DNA from: Methanoculleus frigidifontis
Lineage (GTDB): Archaea > Halobacteriota > Methanomicrobia > Methanomicrobiales > Methanoculleaceae
DNA: 64,000 bases
NCBI RefSeq assembly: GCF_030464345.1
Contig: NZ_VCYH01000002.1
Span: 186,001 to 250,000, forward strand
Direction: 5' to 3'
Part shown: one piece after another, positions 14,715 through 37,811 of the stretch
Layout of the letters: every line of letters begins with the position of its first letter
How positions within the stretch are numbered: the stretch's first letter is position 1
Notes under the pieces: model-generated
Database searches by the model: none
What the model was told of the DNA's origin: nothing
Seen by the model: the letters and a program-made list of their open reading frames with translations, nothing else
Position numbers and translations under genes: made by a program

Positions 14715-14715
14715 G

Positions 14716-18947: not shown

Positions 18948-21900
18948 TAAACTCCCTCTAGACGATCAAATCCACATCGAACAGATTCGAAAATACCTTT
19001 GGAGCGGAAGAGAATACGGCAAAGCCGCAGTAATGGTTGGTAGCGGATTCAGCCGGAATGCCGAAAGATTCTCTCAAAACACCCGCTTATTCCCCCTTTG
19101 GAATGATCTTGGAGTGTTGTTCTATGATGCGCTCAACCCGAAATGGGGTGAGCATGCGTCGGAAAGAGCCTACTCAACTTCTGGAGCGAACGCCGTAAAG
19201 TACGCGTCCGAATATGAGGCCAAATTTGGGAGATTGGCTTTAAACAACCTTCTACTCGAAAATATACCCGATAATGAGTACTTCCCTGGAAATCTGCATG
19301 AGCTCCTGCTCTCGTTACCGTGGTCAGATGTCTTCACCACAAATTATGACACTTTGCTAGAGAGAACGCTTCCAAGAATATTCGATAAAAAATACGATAT
19401 CATACAGAATATCAACCAAATCCCTACTAAGATTAAACCAAGGGTAATCAAGTTACATGGGAGTTTTCCCTCAAATTTTCCATTTATTATAACTCAAAAA
19501 GACTATGAGGATTACCCTACAGATTTTGCTCCGTTCACGAATCTGGTTCAACAATCAGTAATGGAAAACATCTTCTGCCTTATTGGTTTTTCAGGAGATG
19601 ACCCGAACTTCACACGATGGGTCGAATGGGTTAGAAAGTATCTCGGAAAATATGCTCCTCCTATCTATCTGTGTGGGGTTTTGGACGCTGACCAAGCTGA
19701 GAGAGATAGATGTGAGGCAAACGGCGTCAAGATGATCGATCTAGCGCCGCTATTCCCTCGTACAGAGTGGCCTGATACAGATGAAAGGCACCGATGTGCC
19801 CTGGAATGGTTTTTGTGGACCTTAAAACTTGGAGAACCTCAAAACAAGTTGAGATGGCCAAAACCTGCAAGGATTCCGCAGCCCAATCTCAGCAGTTGTT
19901 TCATTCCCCAAATTCCACCAGGCACCCCCCCATTGCCAGATTTAGGGTCACAGGGTCCCAAAGATAATAATATTTCACCAGAGGAACTCCTCGAATTATC
20001 TAAAAAGTGGCGCGAGCAGAGACTTCACTATCCAGGTTGGGTCGTCACCCCCGGCGAAAACCGTGCGGTGATTTGGAATTATACTCATTACTGGATTAAC
20101 CCTGTTGCAAACTCAGTTAGAGCTCTTCATTTCCCTGATAACCTTTACTTACTCTTTGAGCTGATCTGGAGGCTTGAGAAGTCTCTTGTCCCGCTATTTA
20201 GTAATGTTGCTGATGTCTTGAGGGAACTATTGGTCTCAATAAATCCCTACCCTCAGATCATTCATCTGGACAGCGCGGAATACAGGCCAGACGATGAAAA
20301 TGCAAGAGATTTCAATTGGAAACAAATCGGCGAAAGCTGGGTTTACCTCGCTTTTGCTATGGCGAGGCAAACGCGGGAGTTCTTCGACGAGAGCGAGCAT
20401 CGCCAGTGGATGGACAGACTGGAAAAAGTAGGTGATTTGAAGAAGGAGTGGAAAATCAGATATTGCTACGAGGACTCACTGTATAATCTTTTCAAATTCG
20501 ATCACGATCAGGTCTTCAAGATACTCGAGACATGGCCGGAAGATTACGATATACCTCATTTCGCAGTTAAACGTGCTGCAATTCTCGCAGAGTTGGGTGA
20601 ACTAACCGAAGCCGAGCGAACATTACGTGCCACACTGACACGGATCCGATCCCACCTTCAGTCAAACATTGAGGATTATGCCTTACTCTCACAAGAGGGA
20701 TGGACAATGAATTTGCTGAGCATGGTTGATTATAGCAATTCGTGGACTTCCGGCGACACCCTTCGTGAAGAGTACCATAATCGGTGGGATCGGTTGGGGC
20801 ATTATCGTTGCAACCCTCAGCCTGAGATTGAAAGGTTGACAGCGGGCGTCAGTACTCCTCCACAACAATCAACTCCACAAATTGAAAGAAAGAAAGACTT
20901 TGATCCTGGTAGAGTGACAAATACGTTGCACTTCGCGTCGGATCAAGATGTCGAAAGGTCTCTTCCCGCCTTTTCCTTCCTGAGAATGTATGAGGAAGCT
21001 GGTATGCCGATGAAGTGCGGGTTGATCTCGGTATATTCTGACGAAATTGCCAACGCATCGGATCGTATCGAAGCGCTCGCACCACTTTGGTCCCTTAACA
21101 CAATAATTCGGTCAAGAAAGACCGACCGGGTGAAGAAGAGATTCAATCGCGCATTTATCGCTGCAATCAGCCAAGAACAGGTAGATACATATCATTCATT
21201 GTTACTCGATTCATTCCAAAAGTCAGTACAGTATTTGATTGAAAATCCCTCAATCAATCATAGAAGAACGCCATCTTTTCAATATCAACAGGTGCAAACA
21301 CTCTCCGAGCTCCTATCCAGGCTTTGCATAAGATTCTCTCCATCAGAACTGTCGCAACTGCTAGATCTCACTATCAGAATGTATAAGAATCCTGTCTTCT
21401 ACCGAGATCCCTCAGTATATGATGGCATCAAGCAATTATTCCAGAGAATACTTCACTCAATGACGAAAGATCAAACGCTATCGCTACTCCCACGGTTATT
21501 ATCGCTGCCGGTAGCAAATGAAGATGATTATCACCCTGCAGTCGTAAGTCATTGGGTCGAGCCGTTCCACTACATCAATTTGGGCAAGAGTGCCAGTGTT
21601 ACCAAAAACTTTGATCAAGGCGTAGTGAAGTCACAGATCGAGCGACTAACACGGATCGTAAGGGTTGGAAATGACGAGGCAAGGTCACGTGCGCTCTTGC
21701 GGTTGGTTTCGCTTGTCGACATCGGTGCGCTTGATGAAGTAGAAGAAAGGGAGTTTGCAGATGCTTTGTGGGAAAGAATCGATCCAGAAACAGGCCTTCC
21801 AGATCAGACACCGTTTTTGAAATCAGCATTCTTCAGGCTCCCTGAAATTGAGAACGGCGGTTCCAAAGAAAAATTCAGAAAGTACTTATCCTCAATGCCA

Positions 21901-22875
21901 ATCCCAAGGATAGTTGTCCGCAATTTTGCACCGGATGGTAGACAGATTGGTGTAAAGGCTCACTCTGCAGGTGGTGTCTTATCAGACTACTTAGATGAAT
22001 GGGGGACTGCATCTCCACCGATAACGTGTCCTGACATTTGTGAAGATGACAAGTACATCGATTGGACTCCCGAAGAGTTATCTGCTCTGCTCTTTAAAAT
22101 CGCAGAGGTATGGGACGATCTAAAAGATCTTCTTGGCGAATCCGGGAAAACTCTCAGGGTCTTTAGCCTTGACTCACTCGATTCGCAGTTTTCCGGGCTC
22201 GTCAGGTTAATGAACAATATAATATTGCCGAGAATCCGTCGGCTGCAGAACAAAGAGGCAGAGGAACTCATATTCCGACTGTTGTCCGAGATGGAAAAAC
22301 TCGGGGTCGATGTCCTTTCAGCCTATCCTTTTGTTCTTCTGATAGACTCCAGTTATTATGAGCAAGTAACTGCGAAGTTGCGAGATGGGATTATTTCACC
22401 AAATCCCTCGAAGGTGCGTGATGCACTGATTGGCATTTACCATTGGGTCTGTTGTAGCCGAAATGAAAGCAGTTTGTCACCGCCGGAAGATTTACTGAAC
22501 GAATTGGTGCATAAGATTTCTACTCGCAGGCAACCCGAACTGGACACGGCACTGAAAATTGCCGCAGCAATAGTGGAGCGCTGCTCGGATGCCCTTTCTC
22601 AAGAGCAACTGCAGGAACTCTATATTGGATTAGAGTATCTTAGCGCTGAGACAGACCTTGCGCACGAGGGTGAGAGAGATGTGCATCCAGATCAGCCTGA
22701 TTTCATTCCGCTTGATGATAAACCCGACATACGGCGGCATTCTGCGGCTTTAGCGCACTACCTCTACAATTATTGTACCGCCCATGGAGAGGGTGTGCCG
22801 GACGTGCTCAACAAATGGAAACAGATCTGTGAGACTGATCCATTACCGGAAGTCCGGAAAGCGTGGGAAGAGTAG
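18940..22875 (+). CDS. Large SIR2-domain defence-type protein
   Basis: The 1311-aa protein starts with a SIR2_2-type NAD-binding domain: VMVGSGFSR (GSG at 34-36), TTNYDTLLER with N135, and KLHGS with H173, so the residues needed for NAD cleavage are present. The remaining 1000 residues are helical and repeat-like, resembling the sensor parts of SIR2 antiphage proteins and possibly DUF4020. SIR2 effectors typically deplete NAD on phage infection. The ATG at 18940 lies inside the end of the restriction gene after GGAGGG, so the two are translationally coupled. The gene is AT-richer than the restriction gene core. Confidence 0.8.
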   Translation: MNSKLPLDDQIHIEQIRKYLWSGREYGKAAVMVGSGFSRNAERFSQNTRLFPLWNDLGVLFYDALNPKWGEHASERAYSTSGANAVKYASEYEAKFGRLALNNLLLENIPDNEYFPGNLHELLLSLPWSDVFTTNYDTLLERTLPRIFDKKYDIIQNINQIPTKIKPRVIKLHGSFPSNFPFIITQKDYEDYPTDFAPFTNLVQQSVMENIFCLIGFSGDDPNFTRWVEWVRKYLGKYAPPIYLCGVLDADQAERDRCEANGVKMIDLAPLFPRTEWPDTDERHRCALEWFLWTLKLGEPQNKLRWPKPARIPQPNLSSCFIPQIPPGTPPLPDLGSQGPKDNNISPEELLELSKKWREQRLHYPGWVVTPGENRAVIWNYTHYWINPVANSVRALHFPDNLYLLFELIWRLEKSLVPLFSNVADVLRELLVSINPYPQIIHLDSAEYRPDDENARDFNWKQIGESWVYLAFAMARQTREFFDESEHRQWMDRLEKVGDLKKEWKIRYCYEDSLYNLFKFDHDQVFKILETWPEDYDIPHFAVKRAAILAELGELTEAERTLRATLTRIRSHLQSNIEDYALLSQEGWTMNLLSMVDYSNSWTSGDTLREEYHNRWDRLGHYRCNPQPEIERLTAGVSTPPQQSTPQIERKKDFDPGRVTNTLHFASDQDVERSLPAFSFLRMYEEAGMPMKCGLISVYSDEIANASDRIEALAPLWSLNTIIRSRKTDRVKKRFNRAFIAAISQEQVDTYHSLLLDSFQKSVQYLIENPSINHRRTPSFQYQQVQTLSELLSRLCIRFSPSELSQLLDLTIRMYKNPVFYRDPSVYDGIKQLFQRILHSMTKDQTLSLLPRLLSLPVANEDDYHPAVVSHWVEPFHYINLGKSASVTKNFDQGVVKSQIERLTRIVRVGNDEARSRALLRLVSLVDIGALDEVEEREFADALWERIDPETGLPDQTPFLKSAFFRLPEIENGGSKEKFRKYLSSMPIPRIVVRNFAPDGRQIGVKAHSAGGVLSDYLDEWGTASPPITCPDICEDDKYIDWTPEELSALLFKIAEVWDDLKDLLGESGKTLRVFSLDSLDSQFSGLVRLMNNIILPRIRRLQNKEAEELIFRLLSEMEKLGVDVLSAYPFVLLIDSSYYEQVTAKLRDGIISPNPSKVRDALIGIYHWVCCSRNESSLSPPEDLLNELVHKISTRRQPELDTALKIAAAIVERCSDALSQEQLQELYIGLEYLSAETDLAHEGERDVHPDQPDFIPLDDKPDIRRHSAALAHYLYNYCTAHGEGVPDVLNKWKQICETDPLPEVRKAWEE

Positions 22876-25601: not shown

Positions 25602-27271
25602 TCACGCATCGTGCGACCGGTCGGAGGCAAGAACCCACGTAGCGCCCTTCGTTCTCCCGACAGTTCGTATCGTCCCTTCCTTTCGCATCTCCTGAAGCAG
25701 ATCCCTGATAAAGAGGTACTTCTGTTCGTCGTTCAAGGCGTCCGAGACCTTGTCGAACAACAGGTCTTCAATATCCGACCTCTTCGCCTCGTGATACGTT
25801 TTCAGATACGCCGTCACCAGCCCCTTGAAATGCGCTTTATCAAGCGAGTGCTTCCGAATATAATCGGCCCGCGTATCTGTTTCGGCAGCGACACCCGCCG
25901 AGACGTGCAGGTTCGGAGACCGGCCCTCGATGAGTCGCTTCTTTCGCAGAGCTCTCTGCTCCTCCAGAGTTATCGGCATCCCCTTCTGCACCTTATCGAG
26001 GGCGATCACATCCGTCAGCGTCAGATCCGTACGCTTGACGAGCATCCGGGTATACTTCTCGTCGATCACCCGTCCGGGAACGGTAACCCGCACCATCCCT
26101 GCTTCGCTGAAGTCATAGTCGGGCATTGGGAAGTTACGATCCCGCTGTTTTGTAAACATCCGCTTGATCCCGCTGCCGATGGTGTCGATCATATCCAACT
26201 CGACCATCGCATTCGCGAGGAACGGGTTTCGATACCAGTCGGAGGGCATATCCCGCTCAATAACACTCTGGACGGTTCCCGGAATAAAATCGCCGCGGTT
26301 CGTAAACAGGAGGGAATCCGGCCTTTCGGTCACCGTGATGCGGGCGGATTGGCGGTAGTCCTGGTGGGCGATGCAGTTGTGCAGCGCTTCGCGGATCACC
26401 CACTGGTCATACTGTGGGATTTCCGTGGGAAACAGCGTCTCCTCGGAAATATAGCGAATCGTGAGATTTCGGATCTTTTCAAACACTTTATCGACCGCAA
26501 GGATCATCGGCTGATCAAAGTGAGCATAATCGACCTCGATCTCTGCGTCGTCCCGCAAAACCCAGGTGATGCGTGCAATCGCAGGTGAGAGGTAGTGTCC
26601 CGCTTCGCCCTTTCCAAGGAGAATGATTGCGGTCTTCGTTATTTTTCCGTCTCTGCAGACCTTTGCTTTACTCAGGAAGGTGGCATCGTCCCATTCGTCA
26701 ACCTCTTCTGCAAGGTTCCTGTGCTTTTTCTTATATTTGGCGCGTGCAAACGCGATCGCTTCCGGATCGAGATCGGCAATTGTTGCGCCGTCGCAGAACT
26801 CCGCCGACCAGTCGGGCAGCGGTACCTGAGCACGTATCCGATCAATCTCATGAGGCCCAAAGGTGTAAGCGAGTCGTGAATGCGGCCATATGCAATGCTC
26901 CTCCACGTGGTCGGAGCTCCACGGAGAGCAGGCGGTATCTCAAACAGGATCACCCGCTTCCCATCGACGGTGATCTCGTGAACTGCAGAAAACGTCATCT
27001 GATGATTTGTCTGCTGCCCGATCTTCTGCTTGAGCCGGTCAAGCCCGGGCGGAGTGGGATAATAGTTTGAGCCGACAACCTCCCGGGGAGGCTTGTCCGT
27101 GACGCCGAAGACAAGCCATCCGGCAGGTTGCCCGTTCAGGTTGGCTTCGTTGCTCAACCCAGAGAAGTATCTGCCGAGATCATCGAAATCAAAGTTATTC
27201 TTTGCTTCCTTGAACTCGACCCATTCCGTTTCGGCCGGAAGCAACAGGAGTTCCCGTAGCAGGGAATGCAT
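25602..27271 (-). pseudogene. AlbA_2-type ATP-binding protein, frameshifted
   Basis: Two minus-strand frames make one protein. The N-terminal frame from 27271 (MHSLLRELLLLPAETEWVEFKEAKNNF) is the AlbA_2/Schlafen-like DNA-binding domain, with GWLVFGVTDK. The C-terminal frame to 25602 has the HATPase-like domain (REALHNCIAHQDY, LLFTNRGDFIPG, IGSGIKRMF) and a winged-helix tail. They meet near 26860, where the frame shifts at SLTPLG/HEIDRIRAQV. Restored length is about 555 aa, normal for the family. Such proteins are putative regulators in accessory regions. A single indel, natural or a sequencing error, splits it. Confidence 0.8.
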
Positions 27272-27388: not shown

Positions 27389-28516
27389 TCACCCACACGC
27401 CGCCACCACCAAATCCCTCTCATACCGCAGCGCGATACCCCGCGTCCGTCCCCCCTCGTTCCGGTGCTGCACACCGATCAGCCGCATCTCGTCGAGCTTC
27501 CTGAGCCGGTCGAAGAAACTCGAGTACGAGAGCTGCATCCGCTCCTTCGCAGACCGGAAGACCTCGCCGGACGTCAGCCCCGCACTTGCCCGGCTCATCT
27601 CCGCGATGTGCCGGAGCAGCCGGCGTTCGGCCGCCGAGAGCGTCCGCACCGTGCAGGCGAGATGCACGTAGCGCGAGTGCTCGTACGCGGCGCAGACGTC
27701 CGCGCGGCAGACCTCCTTCCTGCCCGCCGTCTCCGCGAGCAGCACCGACCGCTTGATCAGGTCGAGCCCCACCCGGAGGTCCCAGGGCGCAATCGTCTGC
27801 GTCACCACGAAGTCGAGCATCTCCGCTGATAGGACGCCCGGGTAGAGGCCCTGCACCGCCCGATCCTTCAGGATGGCGCACATCTCTCCGGCCGTGTAGG
27901 GGTCGAAGGAGATCTCCGCCGGCTGGAAGACCGAGGTCACGCAGGCGTCGAGCTCCGCCTTCAGGTCGCGGTGCACGTCCGAGAGCGTCGCGATCACGCC
28001 CATCCGGGTGCCCGGATACTCCTCGTGCGTCCGGATCAGAGTGTAGAGCACGCCGTTTACGGTCTCCGCGTCCTGCAGGTAGTTGATATCGTCCAGGCAG
28101 ACGATCACAACCTGCTGCTCATCGAGCATGTGGCGGGCGATAGCGGCGAGCACTTTGCGCTGCGGCACGCCGTTCGTCTGCGGAGCGTGCCCGACCAGCT
28201 GCTCGTAGACCTTCGCAAACACCTTCGCCCGCGTCCGTTCGACCTGGCAGTTCACGAAGACCGGCATCAGCGTCCGGGTCGCCTCCTCGATATCGGCGAA
28301 GAGCTTCTTCACGCACGTCGTCTTCCCGGTGCCCGGCAGCCCCTTGCAGATAGCGTTCAGCGGCCGGCCGCCCCGGAGCGCCGGGCGGATGTGAAAGGCG
28401 AGTTCCCGCAGCTGCCGGTCGCGGTGGTGGAGCTGGTCCGGGACAAAATCGATCTCGAAGACGTCCTGGTCGCGAAAGAGCGTCTGATCCCACCCGAGGT
28501 AATCTTTCGTCGCCAT
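27389..28516 (-). CDS. ORC1/Cdc6-type replication initiator
   Basis: The 375-aa AAA+ protein has Walker A GLPGTGKTT (59-67), Walker B VIVCLDDIN (DD at 142-143) and a C-terminal winged helix ending VAACG. Archaeal Orc1/Cdc6 proteins bind ORB elements at origins and load MCM. Length is slightly short but complete. It is surrounded by accessory genes, so it may be an extra paralogue linked to an element rather than the main origin protein. Its 3' end has been copied to 25182-25360. Confidence 0.9.
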   Translation of the reverse strand: MATKDYLGWDQTLFRDQDVFEIDFVPDQLHHRDRQLRELAFHIRPALRGGRPLNAICKGLPGTGKTTCVKKLFADIEEATRTLMPVFVNCQVERTRAKVFAKVYEQLVGHAPQTNGVPQRKVLAAIARHMLDEQQVVIVCLDDINYLQDAETVNGVLYTLIRTHEEYPGTRMGVIATLSDVHRDLKAELDACVTSVFQPAEISFDPYTAGEMCAILKDRAVQGLYPGVLSAEMLDFVVTQTIAPWDLRVGLDLIKRSVLLAETAGRKEVCRADVCAAYEHSRYVHLACTVRTLSAAERRLLRHIAEMSRASAGLTSGEVFRSAKERMQLSYSSFFDRLRKLDEMRLIGVQHRNEGGRTRGIALRYERDLVVAACG

Positions 28517-28741: not shown

Positions 28742-29113
28742 TCACTTTCCGTGCCCGGAAACCCATTCGCTGCCGAGCTCCGTCAGGCTGTAGATGATCC
28801 AGTTCCCCTGCTGATCGCCGGCGATCAGCCCGGCCTTCTTCAGGACCGAGAGGTGGTAGGAGAGCTTCGAGTCTGCAATATCGAGCACCGTCTTGATCAC
28901 ACAGACGCAGAGCGGCTGAACCGCGAGCATGGCGAGGATCTTCAGCCGCAGCGGGTCGGCGAGCACACGGTAAAGGCCACAGTCCTGCTCGAATATCGTA
29001 TCGTCCGGCAGCTGCTCTACCAGCCCCGCAATCCCGCCGCACCGGCAGAGTGACTCCTCGACCCCGGGAGGGAGGGGAAGGGACGCATCCTGATACCGTT
29101 CGTCTTTCGTCAT
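28742..29113 (-). CDS. arsR: ArsR-family metalloregulator
   Basis: The 123-aa protein has the ArsR winged helix: LADPLRLKILAMLAVQPLCVCVI, then ADSKLSYHLSVLKKAGLIAG. The C-x-C in the recognition-helix region (LCVC) is the usual arsenic or metal site, and extra cysteines (LCRCGG, EQDCG) may add ligands. It diverges from the proC-like gene and is flanked by TTTCAAA-type operators that also precede the main cluster. Release from DNA on As(III) or organoarsenical binding is expected. Confidence 0.88.
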   Translation of the reverse strand: MTKDERYQDASLPLPPGVEESLCRCGGIAGLVEQLPDDTIFEQDCGLYRVLADPLRLKILAMLAVQPLCVCVIKTVLDIADSKLSYHLSVLKKAGLIAGDQQGNWIIYSLTELGSEWVSGHGK

Positions 29114-29132: not shown

Positions 29133-29150
29133 TTTCAAAATAATATGAAA
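29133..29150. promoter_or_regulatory. ArsR operator candidate 1
   Basis: TTTCAAA-ATAA-TATGAAA is an inverted repeat with one mismatch. It lies in the arsR/proC-like intergenic region, 20 bases upstream of the arsR ATG, and would let ArsR control both divergent genes. The same 7-4-7 pattern recurs at 30061-30078. Confidence 0.65.
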
Positions 29151-29222: not shown

Positions 29223-30002
29223 ATGGACACACCAAGCGTCGGTTTCATCGGCGGCGGCAGGGTTGCCCGGATCATCCTGTCAGGATGGGAGATAGGCAAA
29301 GCGATGCCGGAGCGGGTCATCGTCAGCGATGCCAGCCCTGCGGCGCTCGCCGCGCTCACGGAACAGTTCCCGTCGATCGAGGCCGCCGGCAACGACAACA
29401 CCTGCCCGGCATCGGCGGATATCGTGGTGCTCGGCCTGCACCCGCCCGCCGTCGGAGCGGTGCTGCAGGCGATCGCCCAGGCCCTGCAGGAGGAGGCGCT
29501 TCTCGTCTCGCTCGCACCGAAGTGGAAGATCGCCGGGCTTGCAGAGGGGCTCGGCGGAAGGCCGGCGATCGCCCGGATGAACCCGAACGCACCGGCGGCC
29601 GTCGGCGAGGGCTACAACCCGGTCGCGTTCTCCGCAGGGGTGACCGACGAGCAGAAACAGCAGTTTGAACGGGTCTTCGGCGTGCTCGGCAGAATGCCGG
29701 AGGTCGCCGAAGAGAAACTCGAGGCCTACGCCATCCTGACTGCCATGGGGCCAACCTACTTCTGGTTCCAGTGGTACGAACTCCTCGACCTCGCCCGGTC
29801 GTTCGGTCTTTCCGGCGCCGAGGCGGGGGAAGGGCTCGCTGCCATGGTTGAGGGGGCGCTCCGGACGATGCAGAGCCCGGGTTTGGCGCCCGACATCGTG
29901 ACGGATCTCGTCCCGGTCAGACCGATCGCAGCCGGAGAAGAAGCTATCCGGGAGATCTACCGAACGAACCTGATCGGGCTCTACCGCAAGCTCACCGAGT
30001 GA
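29223..30002 (+). CDS. ProC-like NAD(P)-binding oxidoreductase
   Basis: The 259-aa protein starts SVGFIGGGRVARIILSG, a Rossmann nucleotide-binding loop, and ends with the helical dimerisation domain of the pyrroline-5-carboxylate reductase superfamily (AYAILTAMGPTYFWFQWYELLD). It lacks the usual proline-pathway context. It is divergent from arsR and shares its operator region, so it probably belongs to the arsenic regulon; its substrate is unknown. Confidence 0.75.
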   Translation: MDTPSVGFIGGGRVARIILSGWEIGKAMPERVIVSDASPAALAALTEQFPSIEAAGNDNTCPASADIVVLGLHPPAVGAVLQAIAQALQEEALLVSLAPKWKIAGLAEGLGGRPAIARMNPNAPAAVGEGYNPVAFSAGVTDEQKQQFERVFGVLGRMPEVAEEKLEAYAILTAMGPTYFWFQWYELLDLARSFGLSGAEAGEGLAAMVEGALRTMQSPGLAPDIVTDLVPVRPIAAGEEAIREIYRTNLIGLYRKLTE

Positions 30003-30008: not shown

Positions 30009-30026
30009 CTTCAACTCTTTTTGAAA
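30009..30026. promoter_or_regulatory. ArsR operator candidate 2 (weak)
   Basis: CTTCAAC-TCTT-TTTGAAA has one intact half site and a 5 of 7 match in the other, with the same spacing as the other two sites. It stands directly before a TATA-like ACATTTATG (30031-30040). Confidence 0.45.
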
Positions 30027-30060: not shown

Positions 30061-30078
30061 TTTCAAACGGATTTGAAA
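30061..30078. promoter_or_regulatory. ArsR operator candidate 3
   Basis: TTTCAAA-CGGA-TTTGAAA is a perfect 7-4-7 inverted repeat 35 bases upstream of the first gene of the long cluster. Together with site 2 it flanks the presumed promoter, a good layout for repression. Confidence 0.75.
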
Positions 30079-30112: not shown

Positions 30113-30250
30113 ATGGCAGACGGCACCAGCAAAAACCAAAAAGAGGGCATCGCCGGAAAGATCAAAAAACTCTTCACGCCGGAGAACGACTGCGGCTGCT
30201 GCTGCAACGTGAAGATCGTGCCGAAGAAGACGGACGAGAAGAAGGAGTGA
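30113..30250 (+). CDS. Small Cys-rich protein (CGCCC)
   Basis: This 45-aa protein (MADGTSKNQKEGIAGKIKKLF, ending KTDEKKE) carries a compact CGCCC motif in a basic context. I chose the ATG at 30113, with GGAG 9 bases upstream; an in-frame ATG at 30098 is possible. It is the first gene after the operators. The cysteine cluster could bind metal or arsenic, perhaps as a chaperone; that is inference. Confidence 0.7.
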   Translation: MADGTSKNQKEGIAGKIKKLFTPENDCGCCCNVKIVPKKTDEKKE

Positions 30251-30263
30251 CCGGAAGCGGACA

Positions 30264-30581
30264 ATGGTAGACAAACCGACGTCCCTGACCGAAGACGAAC
30301 TGGTCGAAGAGATCCGTGCCTGGGCGGAGCAGTACGCCCGTGAGAACGACCTTATTCTCAACCCGGACGAACGAGTGCGAAACGCCGTCCTCCAGGGGCT
30401 CGCCCGGAACCAGATCCGTTACGGGGTGCGCTACTGCCCCTGCCGCATCCGGAAGGGAGTGGCGGAAGAGGACGCACAGATCGCCTGTCCCTGCGCTTAC
30501 CACCGGGAGGAGATCGAGGCCGAGGGCAGATGCCACTGCAACCTCTTCTTCCGGAAGGATGCAGCCCGGACGGAGGAGTAA
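30264..30581 (+). CDS. Ferredoxin-thioredoxin reductase catalytic subunit
   Basis: The 105-aa protein has the three cysteine motifs of the FTR catalytic chain: CPC (58-60), CPC (75-77) and CHC (90-92). They hold a 4Fe-4S cluster next to a redox disulfide. The enzyme passes electrons from ferredoxin to thioredoxin-like proteins. In this cluster the CAKC proteins at 33089 and 33710 are obvious partners, and ArsC a likely final user. Single-chain FTR forms are usual in methanogens. Confidence 0.88.
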   Translation: MVDKPTSLTEDELVEEIRAWAEQYARENDLILNPDERVRNAVLQGLARNQIRYGVRYCPCRIRKGVAEEDAQIACPCAYHREEIEAEGRCHCNLFFRKDAARTEE

Positions 30582-30584
30582 CGG

Positions 30585-30782
30585 ATGGCCGACCCCGGAC
30601 TGACGATAGAGATCGGAGCGGATATCCTGTGGGTGCTGCTGGCGGTCGTCATCGTCGCGATCGCCTTCGTCATCGGAATGATCGTCCTGATGCGGAGACG
30701 TATGGCGGCCATGATGGAGTACGGCTGCCACTGCATGCCGCCGGCCGAAGCCGAACCGCACGAAGAGAAGCGGGACCGGTGA
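30585..30782 (+). CDS. Small membrane protein with CHC tail
   Basis: The 65-aa product has one membrane helix (about 13-36, LWVLLAVVIVAIAFVIGMIV) followed by RRRM, so a cytoplasmic C-terminus with CHC is expected. It lies 3 bases after the FTR gene and just before the permease. It may assist the permease or anchor a metal site. No family recognised. Confidence 0.65.
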   Translation: MADPGLTIEIGADILWVLLAVVIVAIAFVIGMIVLMRRRMAAMMEYGCHCMPPAEAEPHEEKRDR

Positions 30783-30791
30783 GTGACTGTC

Positions 30792-31673
30792 ATGGATATC
30801 GTCGCAAGTCTTCTCACCGCCGGGCAGTTCTTCGTCGTCATCGCCGGGGAACTGATCCTGCTCTTTGTCGCGATCACCTTTCTCGTCGGGCTCCTCCACG
30901 CCTACGTGCCGGAGGAGCGGATCCGGAGCGTGCTTTCAGGAAAACGGCCGGGCGCCGGCAACGTGCTCGGGGCCGGATTCGGCGCTCTCACCCCGTTCTG
31001 CTCCTGCTCGACCATCCCGATCCTCCTCGGCCTCTTAGACGCCGGAGTCCCGTTCGGGGTCTGCATGTCGTTCCTGCTCGCATCCCCGCTCTTAAACCCG
31101 GTGATCCTCTCGCTCCTCGTGGCACTGGTCGGCATCGTCCCGACCGCTGTTTATGCGGGGATCACCTTTGTAGCGGCGGTAGTGGTCGGGGCGCTCCTCG
31201 GCAGGATGGGATATGGGCGGTACGTCAAGGACGTCACGGTCGCCGGACGGCCGGAACCGTGCGACTGCACCGCCGGCCACGGGACGCGGATCCGCGGCGC
31301 GTTCTCCTTCGCCGTCTCCCTGTTCCGGCAGGTGCTCCCCTACCTGCTGCTCGGCGCCGGGATCGGGGCGTTCATCTACGGGTTCGTCCCCGAAGGCCTG
31401 ATCGTCGCGGTCGCGGGGCCTGGTAATCCCTTCGCCATCCCGGTCGCGGCGGTCATCGGCGTGCCGATGTACATCCGGGCCGAGACGATCATCCCGATCA
31501 GCGCCGTCCTCCTCGAGAAGGGGATGGGAATCGGCGGTGCGGGCGCGAGCATCCCGGAAGTGACGCTGCTTGCCGCTATCTTCGAGCGGCGCCTGGTCGC
31601 CGCCTTCGTGGCGGTCATCCTCGGAGTCGCCGTCCTCGCCGGGGTGGCTTTCCAGGCGCTCGCCGTCATCTGA
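30792..31673 (+). CDS. ArsP-type permease 1 (DUF318)
   Basis: The 293-aa membrane protein has about 8 helices and the family motif FCSCSTIPILLG near residue 70. ArsP/DUF318 permeases export trivalent organoarsenicals in bacteria; the paired cysteines in the membrane are important. I chose the ATG at 30792, preceded by GGTGAG at a good distance, over the GTG at 30783. A second, longer paralogue follows, so the two may form a heteromer or have different substrates. Confidence 0.82.
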   Translation: MDIVASLLTAGQFFVVIAGELILLFVAITFLVGLLHAYVPEERIRSVLSGKRPGAGNVLGAGFGALTPFCSCSTIPILLGLLDAGVPFGVCMSFLLASPLLNPVILSLLVALVGIVPTAVYAGITFVAAVVVGALLGRMGYGRYVKDVTVAGRPEPCDCTAGHGTRIRGAFSFAVSLFRQVLPYLLLGAGIGAFIYGFVPEGLIVAVAGPGNPFAIPVAAVIGVPMYIRAETIIPISAVLLEKGMGIGGAGASIPEVTLLAAIFERRLVAAFVAVILGVAVLAGVAFQALAVI

Positions 31674-31729
31674 ACTGCAGATTGAACAGACGTTGAGAGA
31701 ACACCATACAGTAACAAAAGGAACAGACC

Positions 31730-32809
31730 ATGATTGACCTACTCACCGGCGCTCTTGCGTCCGGGCTCGCGGCAGTGCTCGACTACCTCTCGGCACACGT
31801 CCTCACCTGCCTGGTGCCGGCGTTCTTCATCGCCGGCGCCATTGCCGCTTTCGTCAAGAAAGATGCAATCCTGAAGTACTTCAGCCCGGACACGCCGAAA
31901 CACATCTCCTACGGGATCGCCTCGGTCTCCGGGACGATCCTCGCGGTCTGCAGCTGCACCATCCTCCCGATCTACGCGGGCATCCTCAAGAAGGGGAGCG
32001 GCATCGGCCCGGCGACGACCTTCCTCTTCGCGGGCCCGGCGATCAACGTCCTCGCGATCATCTACACCGCACGGGTGCTCGGCTTCGACCTCGGCGCCGC
32101 CCGGGCGGTCTCTGCGGTCCTGCTCGCGATCGTCATCGGGCTTGGGATGGCGCTGATCTTCCGGTCGACGGACGTCGAGACGCTCAAGAAGAGGGAGATG
32201 GCGCCGAGCGTCGCCGGGGCCTGCGAGGAGGAGAAACCGCGCTGGGTCACGCCCGCGTTCTTCGCCCTCCTCGTCGGGGTGCTGGTCTTCGGGGCGTCGC
32301 AGCTCGACTGGGCAATCCGGATCGGCATCGTCTACGTTCTGACGCTGGCGATCGCCGTCCTCCTCATCTACTACTTCGATAGGGACGAGGTGACCGACTG
32401 GGGGCTCGAGACCTGGGATCTCACGAAGAAGATCTTCCCGATCCTGATCGGAGGGACGTTCATCGTCGGGATCATCGCCTTCTTCCTCCCACCCGAGACC
32501 TTCCAGCCGTTCTTCGGGAACAACTCCGTTGTCGCCTGTGCTCTGGCCTCGATCGTCGGTATGATCCTTTACATGCCGACGCTCCTCGAGGTCCCGATCA
32601 TCGGAACGACCTTCGGCTACTCGGCGGGGCTCATGGCCCCGGGCCCGGCGCTCGCCCTCCTGCTGGCAGGCCCGACGGTCAGCCTCCCCTCCGTCCTCGT
32701 CATCTACCGGATCGTCGGGGCGGCGAAGACCGCAGCCTACGTGGCGCTGGTGGTCGTCTTCGCGACCTTCGCCGGGTTCGTGTACGGGAACGGTATGCTG
32801 CTGATCTAG
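31730..32809 (+). CDS. ArsP-type permease 2 (DUF318)
   Basis: The 359-aa membrane protein shares the motif VCSCTILPIYAG near residue 73 and the two-block architecture of the family, with a central soluble loop (about 145-165). It ends YGNGMLLI. It is longer than its neighbour, with which it probably arose by old duplication. The cluster context points to arsenical efflux. The 5' gap of 56 bases shows no separate promoter. Confidence 0.82.
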   Translation: MIDLLTGALASGLAAVLDYLSAHVLTCLVPAFFIAGAIAAFVKKDAILKYFSPDTPKHISYGIASVSGTILAVCSCTILPIYAGILKKGSGIGPATTFLFAGPAINVLAIIYTARVLGFDLGAARAVSAVLLAIVIGLGMALIFRSTDVETLKKREMAPSVAGACEEEKPRWVTPAFFALLVGVLVFGASQLDWAIRIGIVYVLTLAIAVLLIYYFDRDEVTDWGLETWDLTKKIFPILIGGTFIVGIIAFFLPPETFQPFFGNNSVVACALASIVGMILYMPTLLEVPIIGTTFGYSAGLMAPGPALALLLAGPTVSLPSVLVIYRIVGAAKTAAYVALVVVFATFAGFVYGNGMLLI

Positions 32810-32819
32810 GAGAGAACCA

Positions 32820-33089
32820 ATGGAGACGACGAAGAAACGGGAGAAACCCTGTTGCGCCGCCGAGGCGCTGCGGCGGATCCGCCGGATCGAGGTCGGGGAG
32901 GTCGTCGTCGGGCTGGCGATGCTCGACGACATCCTGGCCGACGTCATCGATCTCGGTCTCGCCGGGGAAACCGCTATCGGCGATGAACTGATCAGACAGG
33001 TAAAGATCTACAACTACGTCCCGAAGGAGGCCGAACCAATCTACCGGGCGGCGCTCCTCCGGGAGTATCACAGCGAGGTGAAGAAATAA
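32820..33089 (+). CDS. Small hypothetical protein with CC motif
   Basis: The 89-aa protein starts METTKKREKPCCAAEALRRI and is helical throughout. The vicinal Cys11-Cys12 pair would suit arsenic or metal binding. Its stop overlaps the start of the CAKC gene (ATGA), so it is translated with it. No family recognised. Confidence 0.65.
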   Translation: METTKKREKPCCAAEALRRIRRIEVGEVVVGLAMLDDILADVIDLGLAGETAIGDELIRQVKIYNYVPKEAEPIYRAALLREYHSEVKK

Positions 33090-33322
33090 TGAAAGTAGAA
33101 GTACTCGGAACCGGCTGCGCCAAGTGCAAGCGGCTCACAAAGAACGTAGAGACAGCGATCAAGGACCTCGGCATCGAGGCCGAACTCGTCAAGGTCGACG
33201 ACATCACCGAGATTATGGAGCGGGGCGTGATGCTGACGCCGGCACTCGCCGTCGACGGCGACCTCAAGGTCTCCGGCCGGGTGGCCGACGTCAAAGAGAT
33301 AAAAGAGATCCTGCAGGGGTGA
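33089..33322 (+). CDS. Thioredoxin-like redox-disulfide protein 1 (CAKC)
   Basis: The 77-aa protein is a minimal thioredoxin fold with the active site GTGCAKC (C10, C13) and the cis-Pro-like MLTPAL. Such small redox-active disulfide proteins of methanogens accept electrons from thioredoxin reductase or FTR. Similar proteins stand beside arsenic genes (ArsE-like). The FTR gene upstream suggests the donor. Confidence 0.85.
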   Translation: MKVEVLGTGCAKCKRLTKNVETAIKDLGIEAELVKVDDITEIMERGVMLTPALAVDGDLKVSGRVADVKEIKEILQG

Positions 33323-33327
33323 CGGAC

Positions 33328-33723
33328 GTGACCCGCGAACGGCGCGTCATCGTCGCCTGCTGCGGTGGGTCGTATCCCGGACAACTCGCCTGCCGCGGCG
33401 CGGTGCGGCTCGCCCGTGAAGGTTACGGCGATCTTGTCGGCGTCGCTGCTCTCGCAGCCGGGCATGTGCCCGAGATAGAACGGGTGCGGGCCGCAGACGA
33501 TATCGTCGTCATCGACGGCTGCGAGACCGGCTGCGCCCGTGCCGTCCTCGACCTGCTCGGGATCGAGCCCGCCCAGTACATCGTCGTCGCCGATCTCGAT
33601 CTCCGGTCGACCGGCTACCTCGGGATCGACCGGCGGGACGTCGACGCGGTCGTCTCTGCCGGATGGGTGCGGGATCGTGCGGCCCGCAATCCCCGGAGGG
33701 GGAGAGAGCATGGTGCTGATTGA
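33328..33723 (+). CDS. DGC-type putative zinc-binding protein 1
   Basis: The 131-aa protein begins RRVIVACCGGSYPGQLACR and has VVIDGCETGCARAVLDLLG, the DGC-domain pattern with Cys clusters at each end. I chose the GTG at 33328, preceded by GGGGTGA, over the GTG at 33319 that overlaps the previous stop. Function of the family is not established; metal binding is inferred from the Cys residues. Two relatives follow in the cluster (33954 and 36024). Confidence 0.72.
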   Translation: MTRERRVIVACCGGSYPGQLACRGAVRLAREGYGDLVGVAALAAGHVPEIERVRAADDIVVIDGCETGCARAVLDLLGIEPAQYIVVADLDLRSTGYLGIDRRDVDAVVSAGWVRDRAARNPRRGREHGAD

Positions 33724-33952
33724 AGTATTCGGGACCGGTTGCGCCAAATGCAAGCGGATGAACAAGAACGTCGAGATCGCGGTCAAGGACCTCGGGATCG
33801 ATGCGGATGTACGGAAGATTGAAGACCTCGATGCGATGATCGAACGCGGTGTCATGCTGACGCCGGCGCTCTACGTCGACGGCGAGCCAAAAGTCGTCGG
33901 GCACGTCCCCTGCGTCGAGGACATCAAACAGATACTGCTTGGAGTGAAGTGA
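33710..33952 (+). CDS. Thioredoxin-like redox-disulfide protein 2 (CAKC)
   Basis: The 80-aa protein repeats the layout of the first, with GTGCAKCKR (C11, C14) and MLTPALYVDG. It overlaps the DGC gene by 14 bases. A GGAGGGGG stretch precedes the ATG. The two copies are clear paralogues and alternate with DGC genes, which suggests a duplicated two-gene unit. Confidence 0.85.
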   Translation: MVLIEVFGTGCAKCKRMNKNVEIAVKDLGIDADVRKIEDLDAMIERGVMLTPALYVDGEPKVVGHVPCVEDIKQILLGVK

Positions 33953-33953
33953 C

Positions 33954-34817
33954 ATGGCAGAACAGACAGTACCCCGGTGCGCCTGCGGAGGCGACGCGGA
34001 GCCGGAAGGCGGAACGAAACGGATCATCTTCGCCTGCGCCGGCGCGTCGAAGGCCGGACAACTCACAAACGAGGCTGCCGTTCAGTTAGCAGAGGAAGGA
34101 TACGGGAATATCGCCTGCACGGCGTCGCTCGCCGTCGGAACACCCTCGATCACGAAGAAGGTCGAGGCGGCGGACGAGGTGATCGTCATCGACGGCTGCC
34201 CGGTCGGCTGCGCCCGCCAGATCGCAGAGCAGGCCGGGGTTACGCCCGACCAGGAGATCGTGGTCACGGACCTCGGGATCGAGAAAGGCGGGAGCCTCGA
34301 TTGTACCGAAGAGGACGTCGAGACGGTCGTCTCCGCCGCCTGGGAGGGAAAAGGGAGAGAAAAGACCTGCCGGCCCGCCGGCGGCTGCGGGTGCGGCTGC
34401 GACTGCGCAGAGCCGGCAGACACTCTCGTCGTCGAGTGGCGGCATATCGGGAAAGATGTCGGGAACACCTGCGAGCGCTGCGGCGAGACCGGACGGGCGG
34501 TTCTGGCCGTCATTGAAGAGATACGCCCGATCCTCGAAGAGGAGGGGATAGAGGTCCGGTTCGTCGAGACCGTCCTGCCAGACGATGTGGTCGCGGAGTC
34601 GAACAGCATCCTCGTGGGCGGCGTCCCGCTCGAAGACCTGATCGAGGGGATTGAAGTAACCAGCACGCCCTGCGCCTCCTGCGCCTGCATCACCGGCAAG
34701 GACGACGTGGAGTGCCGTGCGGTCGAGTACGGGGGCGAACGCTACGAGGCGATCCCACCGGAGCTGATCGCCCGGGCGGCGCTCAAAGCGCTCGGAATCG
34801 ATACCACAGCGGAATAA
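33954..34817 (+). CDS. DGC-domain protein fused to DUF2703-like domain
   Basis: The 287-aa protein has an N-terminal DGC domain (RIIFACAGASKAGQL, VIVIDGCPVGCARQI), a Cys-rich linker (GGCGCGCDC) and a C-terminal DUF2703-like domain beginning LVVEWRHIGKDVGNTC with CERCGE. The final part holds CASCACITG. At least 14 cysteines make metal or arsenic binding likely. Fusion of these two families suggests that they work together; the function is unknown. Confidence 0.72.
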   Translation: MAEQTVPRCACGGDAEPEGGTKRIIFACAGASKAGQLTNEAAVQLAEEGYGNIACTASLAVGTPSITKKVEAADEVIVIDGCPVGCARQIAEQAGVTPDQEIVVTDLGIEKGGSLDCTEEDVETVVSAAWEGKGREKTCRPAGGCGCGCDCAEPADTLVVEWRHIGKDVGNTCERCGETGRAVLAVIEEIRPILEEEGIEVRFVETVLPDDVVAESNSILVGGVPLEDLIEGIEVTSTPCASCACITGKDDVECRAVEYGGERYEAIPPELIARAALKALGIDTTAE

Positions 34818-34818
34818 C

Positions 34819-35598
34819 GTGATAACTGTGACAACTATCGACGGCATTCAGAAAATGGGATCGACGATGAAGGAGCTCCTCGAGCTCTCCGGGTCGCCTG
34901 TCGGCGTACGGATCGTGAAACGGGCCGATGAGATCGCAGAGGCCGAGCCCGCCGGGGGGCACCGGTTCTGCCAGGCGCTGATGCGGGGGAGGCGCGGCGA
35001 CCACGTCGTCGTGACCGCCGAGACGATCGCGTGCCCGGCGGCTGCCCGTGCCTTCGGGTTCAAGCCGCTCCCTGAGGCGCTGAACTCGGGGAAGGGCCTG
35101 GTCGGTTTCGGGATCACCGCAGAAGAAGCGGTCGGGCAGCAGATGTTCGCCGGGATGACCACCTTCGAGCCGGGCGAGATCGTCCAGCTCGACGTCTTCC
35201 CGCAGGACGCCGCCGGGAGCGAGCCCGATATCGTGGTCGTGGAGGACGAGGTCGAGAAACTGATGTGGATCGTCCTCGCCTACATGCATGCCCGCAGGGG
35301 AGAACGGGTCTCGGGCTCGACCGCCGTCCTGCAGGCGACCTGCGTGGATTCAACGATCATCCCCTACGTTGAAGACCGGCTCAACTACGGATTCGGCTGC
35401 TACGGGTGCCGGGACGCGACCGACATGAGGCCGGGCGAGGCGATCGTCGGGTTCCCGGCGCACTACCTCCCCGAGATCGTCGAGCACCTCGAGTACCTGA
35501 ACCAAAAGGCGCTCCCGCATTCCCGGGGCAAGCACGCATTTGCGGCGCTCACGAAACAGCGGGGAGGCGATGAACAGGGCTCCTGCTCATCGCTCTGA
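34819..35598 (+). CDS. DUF169-family protein
   Basis: The 259-aa protein has the DUF169 pattern: MKELLELSGSPVGVRIVK near the start, RFCQALMRGRRG, TIACPAAARAFGF and the end motif YGCRDATDM. DUF169 proteins are common in methanogens and of unknown function, with conserved cysteines. A GTG at 34819 or 34828 is the start; the gap to the previous gene is one base for the first. Confidence 0.8.
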   Translation: MITVTTIDGIQKMGSTMKELLELSGSPVGVRIVKRADEIAEAEPAGGHRFCQALMRGRRGDHVVVTAETIACPAAARAFGFKPLPEALNSGKGLVGFGITAEEAVGQQMFAGMTTFEPGEIVQLDVFPQDAAGSEPDIVVVEDEVEKLMWIVLAYMHARRGERVSGSTAVLQATCVDSTIIPYVEDRLNYGFGCYGCRDATDMRPGEAIVGFPAHYLPEIVEHLEYLNQKALPHSRGKHAFAALTKQRGGDEQGSCSSL

Positions 35599-35613
35599 CG
35601 AGAGGTGATCTTC

Positions 35614-36021
35614 ATGAAAAAGAGAGTGCTCTTCGTCTGCACCCACAACGCCGCCCGCTCACAGATGGCGGAGGGCTACGTGAACGCCCGGTACGGCGAC
35701 CGGTACCAGGCGTTCTCCGCCGGCACCGAGCCCGGGACTCTGAACCCCTACGCCGTCCGGGCGATGGCAGAGATCGGGATCGACATCTCCGGCCACCGCG
35801 TCAAGGATCTCGCCAAGTTCGACGAGCAGGAGATGGACGTCCTCGTCGCCGTCTGCGAAGGAGGGCTCTGCCCCTTCTTTCCCTGGGCGAAAGAGGAGAA
35901 ACACCAGGAATTCCCGGACTCCTCGACCCTCACCGGCACCGACGAGGAGATCATGGCCGGTGTCAGGCGCATCCGGGACGCGATCACCGGCTGGATCGAC
36001 GAGACGTTCGGAGAAGACTGA
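35614..36021 (+). CDS. arsC: Thioredoxin-coupled arsenate reductase
   Basis: The 135-aa protein is an ArsC of the low-molecular-weight phosphatase type with the P-loop CTHNAARS (9-16) and two further cysteines in VCEGGLC (C81, C86), so the full Cys relay for thioredoxin-dependent arsenate reduction is present. I chose the ATG at 35614, behind GAGGTGAT, not the GTG at 35605. It turns As(V) into As(III) for export. FTR plus CAKC proteins in the same cluster are a likely electron route. Confidence 0.92.
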   Translation: MKKRVLFVCTHNAARSQMAEGYVNARYGDRYQAFSAGTEPGTLNPYAVRAMAEIGIDISGHRVKDLAKFDEQEMDVLVAVCEGGLCPFFPWAKEEKHQEFPDSSTLTGTDEEIMAGVRRIRDAITGWIDETFGED

Positions 36022-36023
36022 CG

Positions 36024-36371
36024 ATGGCAGTCACGGTCGTCGCCTGCTCCGGGATCTCGAACACCGGAAAGCTGACCTTCCATGCCGGGACGGCGCTCGT
36101 CCACCGCTCCTGCGGGGCGGTCGAAGCCTGCATCGCGGCCACCCGGCCGACGGCGTCGCTGGAGAATGCCCTGCGGCATGCAGAGCGGATCCTGGTACTG
36201 GACGGCTGCAGCGACTGTTGCGGGAGGAAGAAGGTGCAGGCGCTCGGGGTCGAACCGCACCTGCACCTGGTTGCAACCGACTGCGGGATCGAAAAGAATG
36301 GAATGGCCGAGCCCCGGTTCGAGGAGATCGAACGGCTGGCCGCAGCCGTGCTGGAGGCGGTACGGCGGTGA
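36024..36371 (+). CDS. DGC-type putative zinc-binding protein 3
   Basis: The 115-aa protein starts VTVVACSGISNTGKLTF and has ILVLDGCSDCCGRKK, the DGC motif with an extra vicinal cysteine pair. It follows arsC by 2 bases. Shorter than its two relatives in the cluster, it is otherwise of the same family. Role unknown. Confidence 0.72.
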   Translation: MAVTVVACSGISNTGKLTFHAGTALVHRSCGAVEACIAATRPTASLENALRHAERILVLDGCSDCCGRKKVQALGVEPHLHLVATDCGIEKNGMAEPRFEEIERLAAAVLEAVRR

Positions 36372-36465
36372 AAGCCCCGTCTCTCCCACCCGTCACCGTC
36401 CTGCAGAGGGGAGAAACGCTCTTTTTCAATGACAGGTGGATCGCCGGCCGGATGACTCCCGGGAG

Positions 36466-36479
36466 AAAGTATATATAGC
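36466..36479 (+). promoter_or_regulatory. BRE/TATA promoter of arsF-arsG-like genes
   Basis: GAAAGTATATATAG is a strong archaeal BRE plus TATA box. It lies about 70 bases before the arsF-like ATG, giving a short leader. It implies that the last two genes have their own promoter, apart from the upstream cluster. No TTTCAAA site is next to it. Confidence 0.7.
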
Positions 36480-36549
36480 GGCGTGCATAATAGGCCGCCA
36501 CCACTTCAAATAAAATTGTAATAGCAACCTGCACAAGGAGTGTCCCCTG

Positions 36550-37098
36550 ATGAAACCAGAAAGAACAAGCACTACCGTATCCCGGCGCACGCCCGGGCGG
36601 CGTACCGGCAGCATATCCGGCGGAAAGATCCTGCCGTTTGCCATGCTGGCGGTGCTCCTCGCCTGCACGGCGCTCTTTACCGGATGCGTCGCAGCACCCG
36701 AAGGGGAGGCCACAGCTGCCGCCGCTGCGCCGGAGACGATCAGCGGCACCGTCGCCAGAGTCGAAGTCATTCACTTCACCACGCCAAACCAGTGTTACTC
36801 CTGTGTGGTGCTCGGTGACTATGCCGAAGAGACCGTGAACACGCACTTCGCCGACGAACTCGCCTCCGGGAAGATGGTCTTCGACCATATCAGTATCGCC
36901 GACCCGGCGCAGCAGGAGATCGTCGAGCGCTACGGCGCGACCGGGTCGTCGCTCTGGATCGGCGTCTACGACGACCAGGGCGGGTTCTACCCGGAGGAGG
37001 ACGTCAGGGTCTGGTACAAATTGAACGACAAACCCGGTTTTACGACCTACCTGAAGACGGTCCTTGAGATGCGCCTCCGGGGTGATCTGACGCAATGA
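36550..37098 (+). CDS. ArsF-like membrane-anchored redox protein
   Basis: The 182-aa protein has a basic N-terminus, a membrane segment with lipobox-like LFTGC (about 30-48), and a thioredoxin-like outer domain with CYSC. This matches the ArsF family described with reduction of nitro-aromatic arsenicals such as roxarsone. The rest (VEVIHFTTPNQCYSCVV...) is the usual family core. The last 4 bases overlap the ArsG-like gene. Substrate is inferred from the family name and context. Confidence 0.75.
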   Translation: MKPERTSTTVSRRTPGRRTGSISGGKILPFAMLAVLLACTALFTGCVAAPEGEATAAAAAPETISGTVARVEVIHFTTPNQCYSCVVLGDYAEETVNTHFADELASGKMVFDHISIADPAQQEIVERYGATGSSLWIGVYDDQGGFYPEEDVRVWYKLNDKPGFTTYLKTVLEMRLRGDLTQ

Positions 37099-37811
37099 AC
37101 CTGATGGGGTTCATGGAGACGATGGGGACGAGCAGTATTCCTCTCGTCGCCGCGTTCTTCATCGGGCTGATGATGGCGCTCTCCCCCTGCCCGCTGGCGA
37201 CGAACATCGCCGCGATAGGGTATCTCTCCCGCAGGATTGGCAGCCCCGGCCAGACCCTCCTCGCCGGGTCGCTCTACGGCGCAGGAAGGATGGTCGTCTA
37301 CGTCGGGCTTGCGGCACTGATCGTCATGCTCGGGCTGAATGTTCAGGCGGTCTCGCTCTTCCTGCAGGCCTGGGGCGAGGTGCTGGTCGGCCCGCTGCTG
37401 ATCGGGGTCGGGATCGTGATGCTCGATCTCGTCCCGCTCAGTTTCGGATTCGGCGGCAGCAGCAGGCTCGCGGCGTTCAAGGAGCGGCTCGCCAATCAGG
37501 GCTTGGCGGGGAGCTTTCTCCTCGGTGTGCTCTTCGCGCTGGCCTTCTGCCCGTTCTCGGCGGTGCTCTTCTTCGCCATGCTCGTCCCGCTGGCGCTCCG
37601 GACCGGCGACCCGCTGGGCGTCCCGGCGGTCTTTGCCGTCGCCACGGCTCTGCCGGTGATCGCGTTCTCGCTGATCATGGTGACCGGGGCTACAAAGGTG
37701 GGGAGCGCGATGAAGGCGGCGGAGACGTTCGAGTTCTGGATGCGGCGGATCGTCGGGGTGCTCTTCATCGGGATCGGGGTTTACCTCCTCGCGGCAATGC
37801 TGCTCGGGTGA
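37095..37811 (+). CDS. ArsG-like aromatic arsenical efflux permease (CcdA-type)
   Basis: The 238-aa membrane protein has six helices in the CcdA/DsbD style, with LMMALSPCPLATN near the start and LFALAFCPFSAVLFF later, each with a membrane Cys-Pro. ArsG relatives export trivalent aromatic arsenicals together with ArsE and ArsF. ATGA overlap with arsF-like gene shows coupling. It ends the arsenic region. Confidence 0.75.
   Translation: MNLMGFMETMGTSSIPLVAAFFIGLMMALSPCPLATNIAAIGYLSRRIGSPGQTLLAGSLYGAGRMVVYVGLAALIVMLGLNVQAVSLFLQAWGEVLVGPLLIGVGIVMLDLVPLSFGFGGSSRLAAFKERLANQGLAGSFLLGVLFALAFCPFSAVLFFAMLVPLALRTGDPLGVPAVFAVATALPVIAFSLIMVTGATKVGSAMKAAETFEFWMRRIVGVLFIGIGVYLLAAMLLG

Follow-up and report, generated by a model that had tools for sequence, protein, structure and literature searches.

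An ArsR-regulated, probably arsenic-detoxifying gene cluster with its own ferredoxin:thioredoxin reductase in Methanoculleus frigidifontis

Methanogens live in habitats where arsenic is reduced and methylated, and we know of few descriptions of the arsenic genes of methanogens themselves. Here we describe a gene cluster of Methanoculleus frigidifontis, whose 3.17-Mb, 99% complete genome encodes mcrA twice and is thus that of a methanogen. The cluster lies within 64,000 nucleotides of contig NZ_VCYH01000002.1 (positions 186,001 to 250,000; "the window", to which coordinates refer unless another locus is named), where genes on the + strand are tightly packed from 30113 to 37811 and arsR (28742-29113) is divergent from them.

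The run begins with an open reading frame (ORF) for a 45-residue Cys-rich protein with a CGCCC motif (30113-30250, ATG at 30113; 32 homologues), followed by the catalytic chain of a ferredoxin:thioredoxin/disulfide reductase (FTR) with its CPC-CPC-CHC motifs intact (30264-30581; PF02943, 95 bits) and by TM65, a 65-residue protein with a single transmembrane segment and a GCHC motif (30585-30782). Two ArsP_1 permeases come next, permease a with a CSCS motif (30783-31673; PF03773, 157 bits) and permease b, part of the cluster core, with a CSCT motif (31730-32809; PF03773, 235 bits); then an 89-residue core protein with a PCC motif, which has no Pfam or NCBIfam family (32820-33089). Two thioredoxin-like CAKC proteins of the MTH895/ArsE family (33089-33322, TIGR00412 108 bits; 33710-33952, 93.7 bits; cut-off 62) flank DGC-domain protein a (33328-33723; PF08859, 79 bits). 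They are followed by a DGC~DUF2703 fusion with a Cys-rich linker, GGCGCGCDC (33954-34817), a DUF169 protein with a GCYGC motif (34819-35598; PF02596, 165 bits), ArsC, an arsenate-reductase-type low-molecular-weight phosphatase with a CX5R loop plus two further cysteines (35605-36021, likely ATG at 35614), and DGC-domain protein c (36024-36371; PF08859, 81 bits). The run closes with an ArsF-family lipoprotein with a CYSC motif and invariant Cys (36550-37098; NF040494, 93.5 bits, cut-off 60) and with ArsG, a membrane protein of the DsbD/CcdA fold family with two invariant Cys, one in an SPCP and one in an FCPF motif (37095-37811; NF040495, 266 bits, cut-off 200; PF13386). The genome encodes three DGC domains and two TIGR00412 proteins in all, every one of them inside this cluster. 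A tRNA call at 30314-30402 is spurious, since it lacks a valid anticodon and overlaps the gene for FTR.

An initial annotation, made from the sequence of 30113-37811, had named the FTR, CAKC, ArsC, ArsG, DGC, DUF2703, DUF169 and CGCCC genes and one ArsP-type exporter; family models place every one of these genes where it had put them, and add a second ArsP_1 permease to the single one it noted. It had also passed over ArsF, the 65- and 89-residue proteins, the divergent ArsR and the operators.

The regulator is an ArsR/SmtB-family repressor (28742-29113, - strand; NF033788, 76 bits, cut-off 55) with an N-terminal CRC motif and, in the winged-helix region, LCVC, which we take to resemble the CxC site for arsenite in known ArsR repressors. 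The palindrome TTTCA-N8-TGAAA occurs at four places in the genome, and two of these are putative ArsR operators in the cluster: TTTCAAAATAATATGAAA (29133-29150), between arsR and a gene for a pyrroline-5-carboxylate-reductase (P5CR)-like Rossmann protein (29223-30002, + strand; TIGR00112, 105.7 bits, below the cut-off of 196.75), and TTTCAAACGGATTTGAAA (30061-30078), ahead of the main operon and a short way upstream of the CGCCC ORF. When mismatches are allowed the window holds six matches, four of them in intergenic regions of the cluster (29133, 30009, 30061 and 36504), including imperfect copies at 30009-30026 and, upstream of arsF, at 36504-36521 (CTTCAAATAAAATTGTAA), the latter conserved in family members. 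For comparison we annotated, with window-derived profiles, 60 regions of up to 20 kb each around ArsG or DGC genes in Methanomicrobiales relatives. They contain 86 exact palindromes, against 1.2 expected from first-order Markov sequences, spread over 47 of the 60 loci and mostly at an ArsR, CGCCC or ArsP promoter; a near-match precedes arsF in 12 of 28 loci, compared with 4.3% of random 500-bp windows. With putative sites before both arsF and the FTR operon, arsFG and the FTR operon appear to be tied to one ArsR, and the palindrome common to regulator and operon promoters is what an As(III)-responsive ArsR regulon would have. The conserved operator marks out this regulon and opens the claim to a direct test. 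The P5CR-like gene, which stands between the two exact operators, is optional, being present in 10 of the 60 clusters.

The gene order recurs among the relatives, with parts missing or split in places: a divergent ArsR, then CGCCC-(FTR-TM65)-ArsPa-ArsPb-89-residue protein-CAKC-DGC, continuing from that DGC as (Acr3-USP)-DUF2703-(DUF169)-ArsC-DGC-ArsF-ArsG. Genes were counted in the 60 clusters as follows: DGC in 59, ArsP_1 in 55, ArsR in 50, CAKC in 47, the 89-residue protein in 45, ArsC in 41 (fragments counted), Acr3 in 38, DUF2703 in 34, CGCCC in 29, ArsF in 26, ArsG in 25, DUF169 in 13, FTR in 12 and TM65 in 6, the DGC and ArsG counts being biased upward because the regions were chosen by these two genes. 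The unbiased test is that of genome-wide distance, in which a DGC gene lies within 10 kb of 46 of the 54 Acr3 genes and 25 of the 28 ArsG genes of the relatives, compared with about 2% for a random point. The recurrence of the order in about 60 regions, together with 32 conserved CGCCC copies, argues that the cluster is not a product of chance. It is well supported by these comparisons as a genuine, order-conserved, ArsR-regulated set of arsenic-handling genes, and its function is probably arsenic detoxification. The assignment to arsenic in the initial annotation thus stands, on the ArsR operator, the ArsC cysteine triad, the ArsE, ArsF and ArsG models and the presence of Acr3 in the same cluster of relatives. 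A permease (PF03773)-CAKC thioredoxin-rhodanese-DUF2703 module is also found on a plasmid of Citrobacter amalonaticus Y19 (L172); as an enterobacterial plasmid carries it, the core module extends beyond the archaea.

Regarding the electron route, the ArsC profile has Bacillus subtilis ArsC (1jl3) as its top match (E 2e-37), with equivalents of C10, C82 and C89. The catalytic Cys of the CX5R loop, the Arg and the Asp are invariant in the 32 full-length cluster copies, among which the resolving cysteines C82 and C89 are 91% and 97% conserved, and the window ArsC keeps all three redox cysteines. The six FTR cysteines are likewise invariant; the protein passes the PF02943 cut-off and has PDB kin in 4tpu and 7pwe. 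An FTR was found in 97 of 100 relatives, marking it as a housekeeping enzyme, and the seven cluster FTRs form one clade (support 99/99) apart from the two other FTRs of the genome, which makes the cluster FTR a dedicated paralogue. In the 12 clusters with FTR, ArsP_1 is present in all 12, CAKC in 11 and any ArsC match in 8, so that on co-occurrence transfer from FTR to CAKC would be a better supported step than ArsC alone. Where ArsC is intact, and in the window it is, it is plausibly one client of such a relay, and a predicted chain from ferredoxin through FTR and CAKC to ArsC, as first proposed in the initial annotation, is a sound hypothesis. TM65 occurs only in FTR-bearing clusters (6 of 6), between FTR and the permease. 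The cluster FTR of relative G002 is truncated (L135:12599-12811), so that there the cluster has lost its FTR naturally.

The pathway had been called complete, which does not hold for export. Acr3 was not found in the 99% complete genome, the sole match reaching 23 bits, and two ArsB-superfamily matches were rejected as ArsB, with 65-94 bits against curated cut-offs of 415-457; MamN or DASS models score equal or higher, all of them under cut-off. The standard arsenite pumps being absent, completeness fails for inorganic arsenite efflux. In a same-genus relative (G001) and others, acr3 lies inside the same operon, between DGC and DUF2703, and it is the place of this DGC-acr3-DUF2703 series that the DGC~DUF2703 fusion occupies. 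The fusion occurs in 13 loci, in each of which DUF2703 continues straight on from DGC, and 5 of the 13 have Acr3 elsewhere in the region; matches to the fusion, in a scan over named genomes, came only from Methanoculleus and other Methanomicrobiales. Unfused DGC proteins end in a free Cys-Gly tail (GGCGCGGGGCC in G001) that the fusion linker matches, suggesting that the genes on either side became fused when acr3(-usp) was lost. ArsM is encoded outside the cluster (G000:C12:20121-20948, L168:9622-10476; 355 bits, cut-off 263). ArsP of Campylobacter jejuni exports MAs(III) and Rox(III) and not inorganic arsenite (PMC6205960), and with ArsM present, methylation followed by efflux through ArsP would, by analogy, be a fair guess for the window genes also. 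The ArsM gene follows a small AbrB-like ORF, and the N-terminus of its product has a Cys string, CGCGSGCC, similar to the DGC linker and tail.

The Cys-rich proteins had been described in the initial annotation as a set with no known function, which is partly wrong: DUF2703 has been written about, CAKC is the MTH895/ArsE family, and one DGC protein (AnvM) has a highly oxidation-sensitive cysteine. PDB entry 1ilo is MTH895 itself, of the CAKC family. It is the published best PDB match of DUF2703, which has been placed in the thioredoxin superfamily (PMC3091736), and a DUF2703 gene beside acr3-arsC is arsenate-induced in Rhodococcus (PMC6514093). The most oxidation-sensitive Cys reported in the Pseudomonas aeruginosa proteome belongs to the DGC protein AnvM (PMC6650552); AnvM was also listed by our plasmid search, under a match of 24% identity. 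Our literature search found no paper linking DGC to arsenic resistance. Judging by its 32 homologues, with the consensus CGC..GCC..VKIVPK and a position directly before an ArsP_1 gene in 30 of the 32, the CGCCC ORF is a real gene, and its product is a candidate As(III) chaperone of the permease. We rejected a Cys tail as the mark of DGC genes that stand directly before acr3 (4 of 15, vs 21 of 79). PDB sequence-profile searches with ArsF, the DGC~DUF2703 fusion and the 89-residue protein gave no significant match, and Foldseek with AlphaFold2 models of the last two gave no PDB match below E 0.001. The model of the fusion (mean predicted local distance difference test score, pLDDT, 86) has two ordered domains with the Cys-rich linker disordered between them; that of the 89-residue protein is a beta-hairpin plus helices. 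A second, diverged paralogue of the 89-residue protein is encoded at G000:C3:160096-160356, and many relatives also have a second copy.

From the protein families, their intact cysteines, the shared operators, the conserved linkage and the absence of Acr3, we infer an electron route, a chaperone role and substrates for what we regard as a likely detoxification island of Methanomicrobiales, controlled by ArsR and directed at a metalloid, most likely arsenic. As(III) would occupy ArsR and take the repressor off its TTTCA-N8-TGAAA operators, allowing the genes to be expressed. The cluster FTR would then use electrons of ferredoxin, and not NADPH, to keep CAKC/ArsE, and perhaps DUF2703, reduced; these thioredoxin-like proteins could serve ArsC as it converts arsenate into arsenite, and probably further cysteine clients in the cluster as well. 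As(III) may be bound by the Cys-Gly-rich proteins (CGCCC and the DGC tail or linker) and handed to the ArsP_1 permeases for efflux, with or without prior methylation by the unlinked ArsM. In an ArsE-ArsG-ArsF branch for organic arsenicals, the CcdA-like ArsG would move thiol electrons outward across the membrane to the lipoprotein ArsF, as CcdA biology would suggest. Taken as a whole, a ferredoxin thiol relay with two outlets (FTR to ArsE, and from ArsE both to cytoplasmic ArsC and, via ArsG, to extracellular ArsF), and with a DGC/CGCCC As(III) chaperone line to ArsP in place of Acr3, is a rather speculative scheme, which we advance tentatively. If the relay is real, the low-potential ferredoxin pool of methanogenesis would be linked directly to arsenic handling, and carriage of As(III) would become a testable role for the DGC domain and the CGCCC protein.

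A number of our observations, brought together in this paragraph and the next, weigh against parts of this scheme. An FTR is present in just 8 of the 41 clusters with any ArsC match, and 4 of the 12 FTR clusters have no ArsC. Of 15 relatives checked by tblastn, nine have a broken arsC beside persisting DGC and permease genes: a C-terminal piece in L098, L102, L108 and L119, a frameshift in L110 and L114, and a degraded gene in L126, L127 and L135, with L114, L126, L127 and L135 all being FTR clusters. The small number of ArsC clusters with FTR, and the degradation of arsC beside FTR, mean that FTR must have other clients, and since ArsC is absent or a remnant in such clusters, FTR electrons need not end at arsenate. 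The window ArsC itself scores 99.7 bits, under the 174.3-bit cut-off of the NCBIfam equivalog TIGR02691, and would best be called ArsC-like with intact chemistry rather than a certified member. Neither did hhalign of ArsF and DUF2703 against the CAKC profile recover a thioredoxin kinship, which for DUF2703 we have taken from the published evidence. It is a substantial possibility, if short of the probable, that FTR mainly reduces permease partners or the disulfides of DGC/DUF2703, leaving ArsC to the general thioredoxin system. The company of FTR, ArsP_1 ahead of CAKC and CAKC ahead of ArsC, favours this, as do the ArsC remnants beside it in L126, L127 and L135 and the confinement of the GCHC-bearing TM65 to the gap between FTR and permease; however, the window has an intact arsC that shares its run of genes with FTR, and a chain from FTR through CAKC to ArsC requires no further part. 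The decay of arsC in nine relatives gives the impression that these anaerobes can do without arsenate reduction.

The cluster might alternatively serve thiol redox and the efflux of soft metals (Cu, Zn, Hg, Sb), with ArsP_1, CAKC, the 89-residue protein and DGC as its functional core, ArsC as an add-on and arsenic as one substrate or an accident. These four core genes are each in 45-59 of the 60 clusters and ArsC, often broken, in 41; the nearest NCBIfam models of the permeases, and the only ones matched, are SaoE and the Cu/Zn exporter SO_0444, both far below the cut-offs that would place a permease in a characterised subfamily; and the Citrobacter plasmid module lies near a gene for a cation diffusion facilitator. 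We consider this unlikely, as these clusters repeatedly contain Acr3, ArsC, ArsF and ArsG, the CxC motif of the regulator is of the type that senses As(III), the permease matches to the Cu/Zn model fall far under its cut-off (84 vs 300 bits), and a broken arsC is equally expected where arsenic is already arsenite. DGC also occurs outside methanogens in a non-arsenic context, for example as a plasmid gene grouped with NnrS, YtfE and NorR, and from such nitric-oxide-type contexts DGC has the look of a reactive-thiol domain of general use that this cluster has recruited. This, and the oxidation-sensitive Cys of AnvM, would suit a cluster for oxidative or nitrosative stress in which ArsC is a protein phosphatase or thiol repair enzyme, an explanation that we find very improbable: among the cluster genes we identified no peroxidase, rubrerythrin or the like, full-length ArsC copies retain both resolving cysteines of an arsenate reductase, and the linkage is to Acr3, ArsF and ArsG.

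Retaining arsenic detoxification as the likely function, we can compare the cluster with known systems. The arsEFG module was reportedly described by Chen, Zhang and Rosen in 2019; here too ArsE-family CAKC proteins (TIGR00412), ArsF (NF040494) and ArsG (NF040495) exceed their cut-offs and belong to one putative regulon, but arsFG is set apart on the downstream side of arsC, the two ArsE copies are encoded nearer the start of the run, and the cluster also includes FTR, DGC and ArsP_1 genes; activity on organoarsenicals is a prediction from the family models. ArsC resembles the thioredoxin-type enzymes of pI258 and B. subtilis in fold family, CX5R loop, Asp, two resolving cysteines and need for a thioredoxin-like partner, whereas its predicted electron source is ferredoxin via a [4Fe-4S] FTR in place of NADPH-thioredoxin reductase, and the cluster has no ArsB or Acr3. 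The Rhodococcus BCP1 operon, arsR-acr3-arsC2-arsC3-DUF2703-arsO, in which DUF2703 was proposed as the thioredoxin partner of ArsC (PMC6514093), similarly has DUF2703 in an arsC context, there adjoining acr3 and arsC; that system is NADPH-based, and ours lacks acr3 and has its DUF2703 as part of the DGC fusion. The cluster FTR has the CPC-CPC-CHC catalytic chain of archaeal FTR/FDR proteins such as the FTR-rubredoxin of PDB 4tpu, but is an extra, cluster-borne paralogue with no rubredoxin domain. The permeases share PF03773 and an arsenic context with the ArsP organoarsenical permeases, whose substrates may or may not be theirs. By gene content, the cluster extends known ars systems with its own FTR and several small Cys-rich proteins, minus the usual arsenite pump.

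On its upstream side the cluster adjoins a Cdc6/Orc1-like AAA+ gene (27389-28516), and a RecG-C-terminal/HATPase_c_4 protein is encoded at 25602-26906. Further upstream, at 4635-22875, is a defence-like island with a Fic protein, an Eco57I-type restriction-modification methylase and a SIR2-domain protein of 1320 residues, and with low GC at 18-22 kb.

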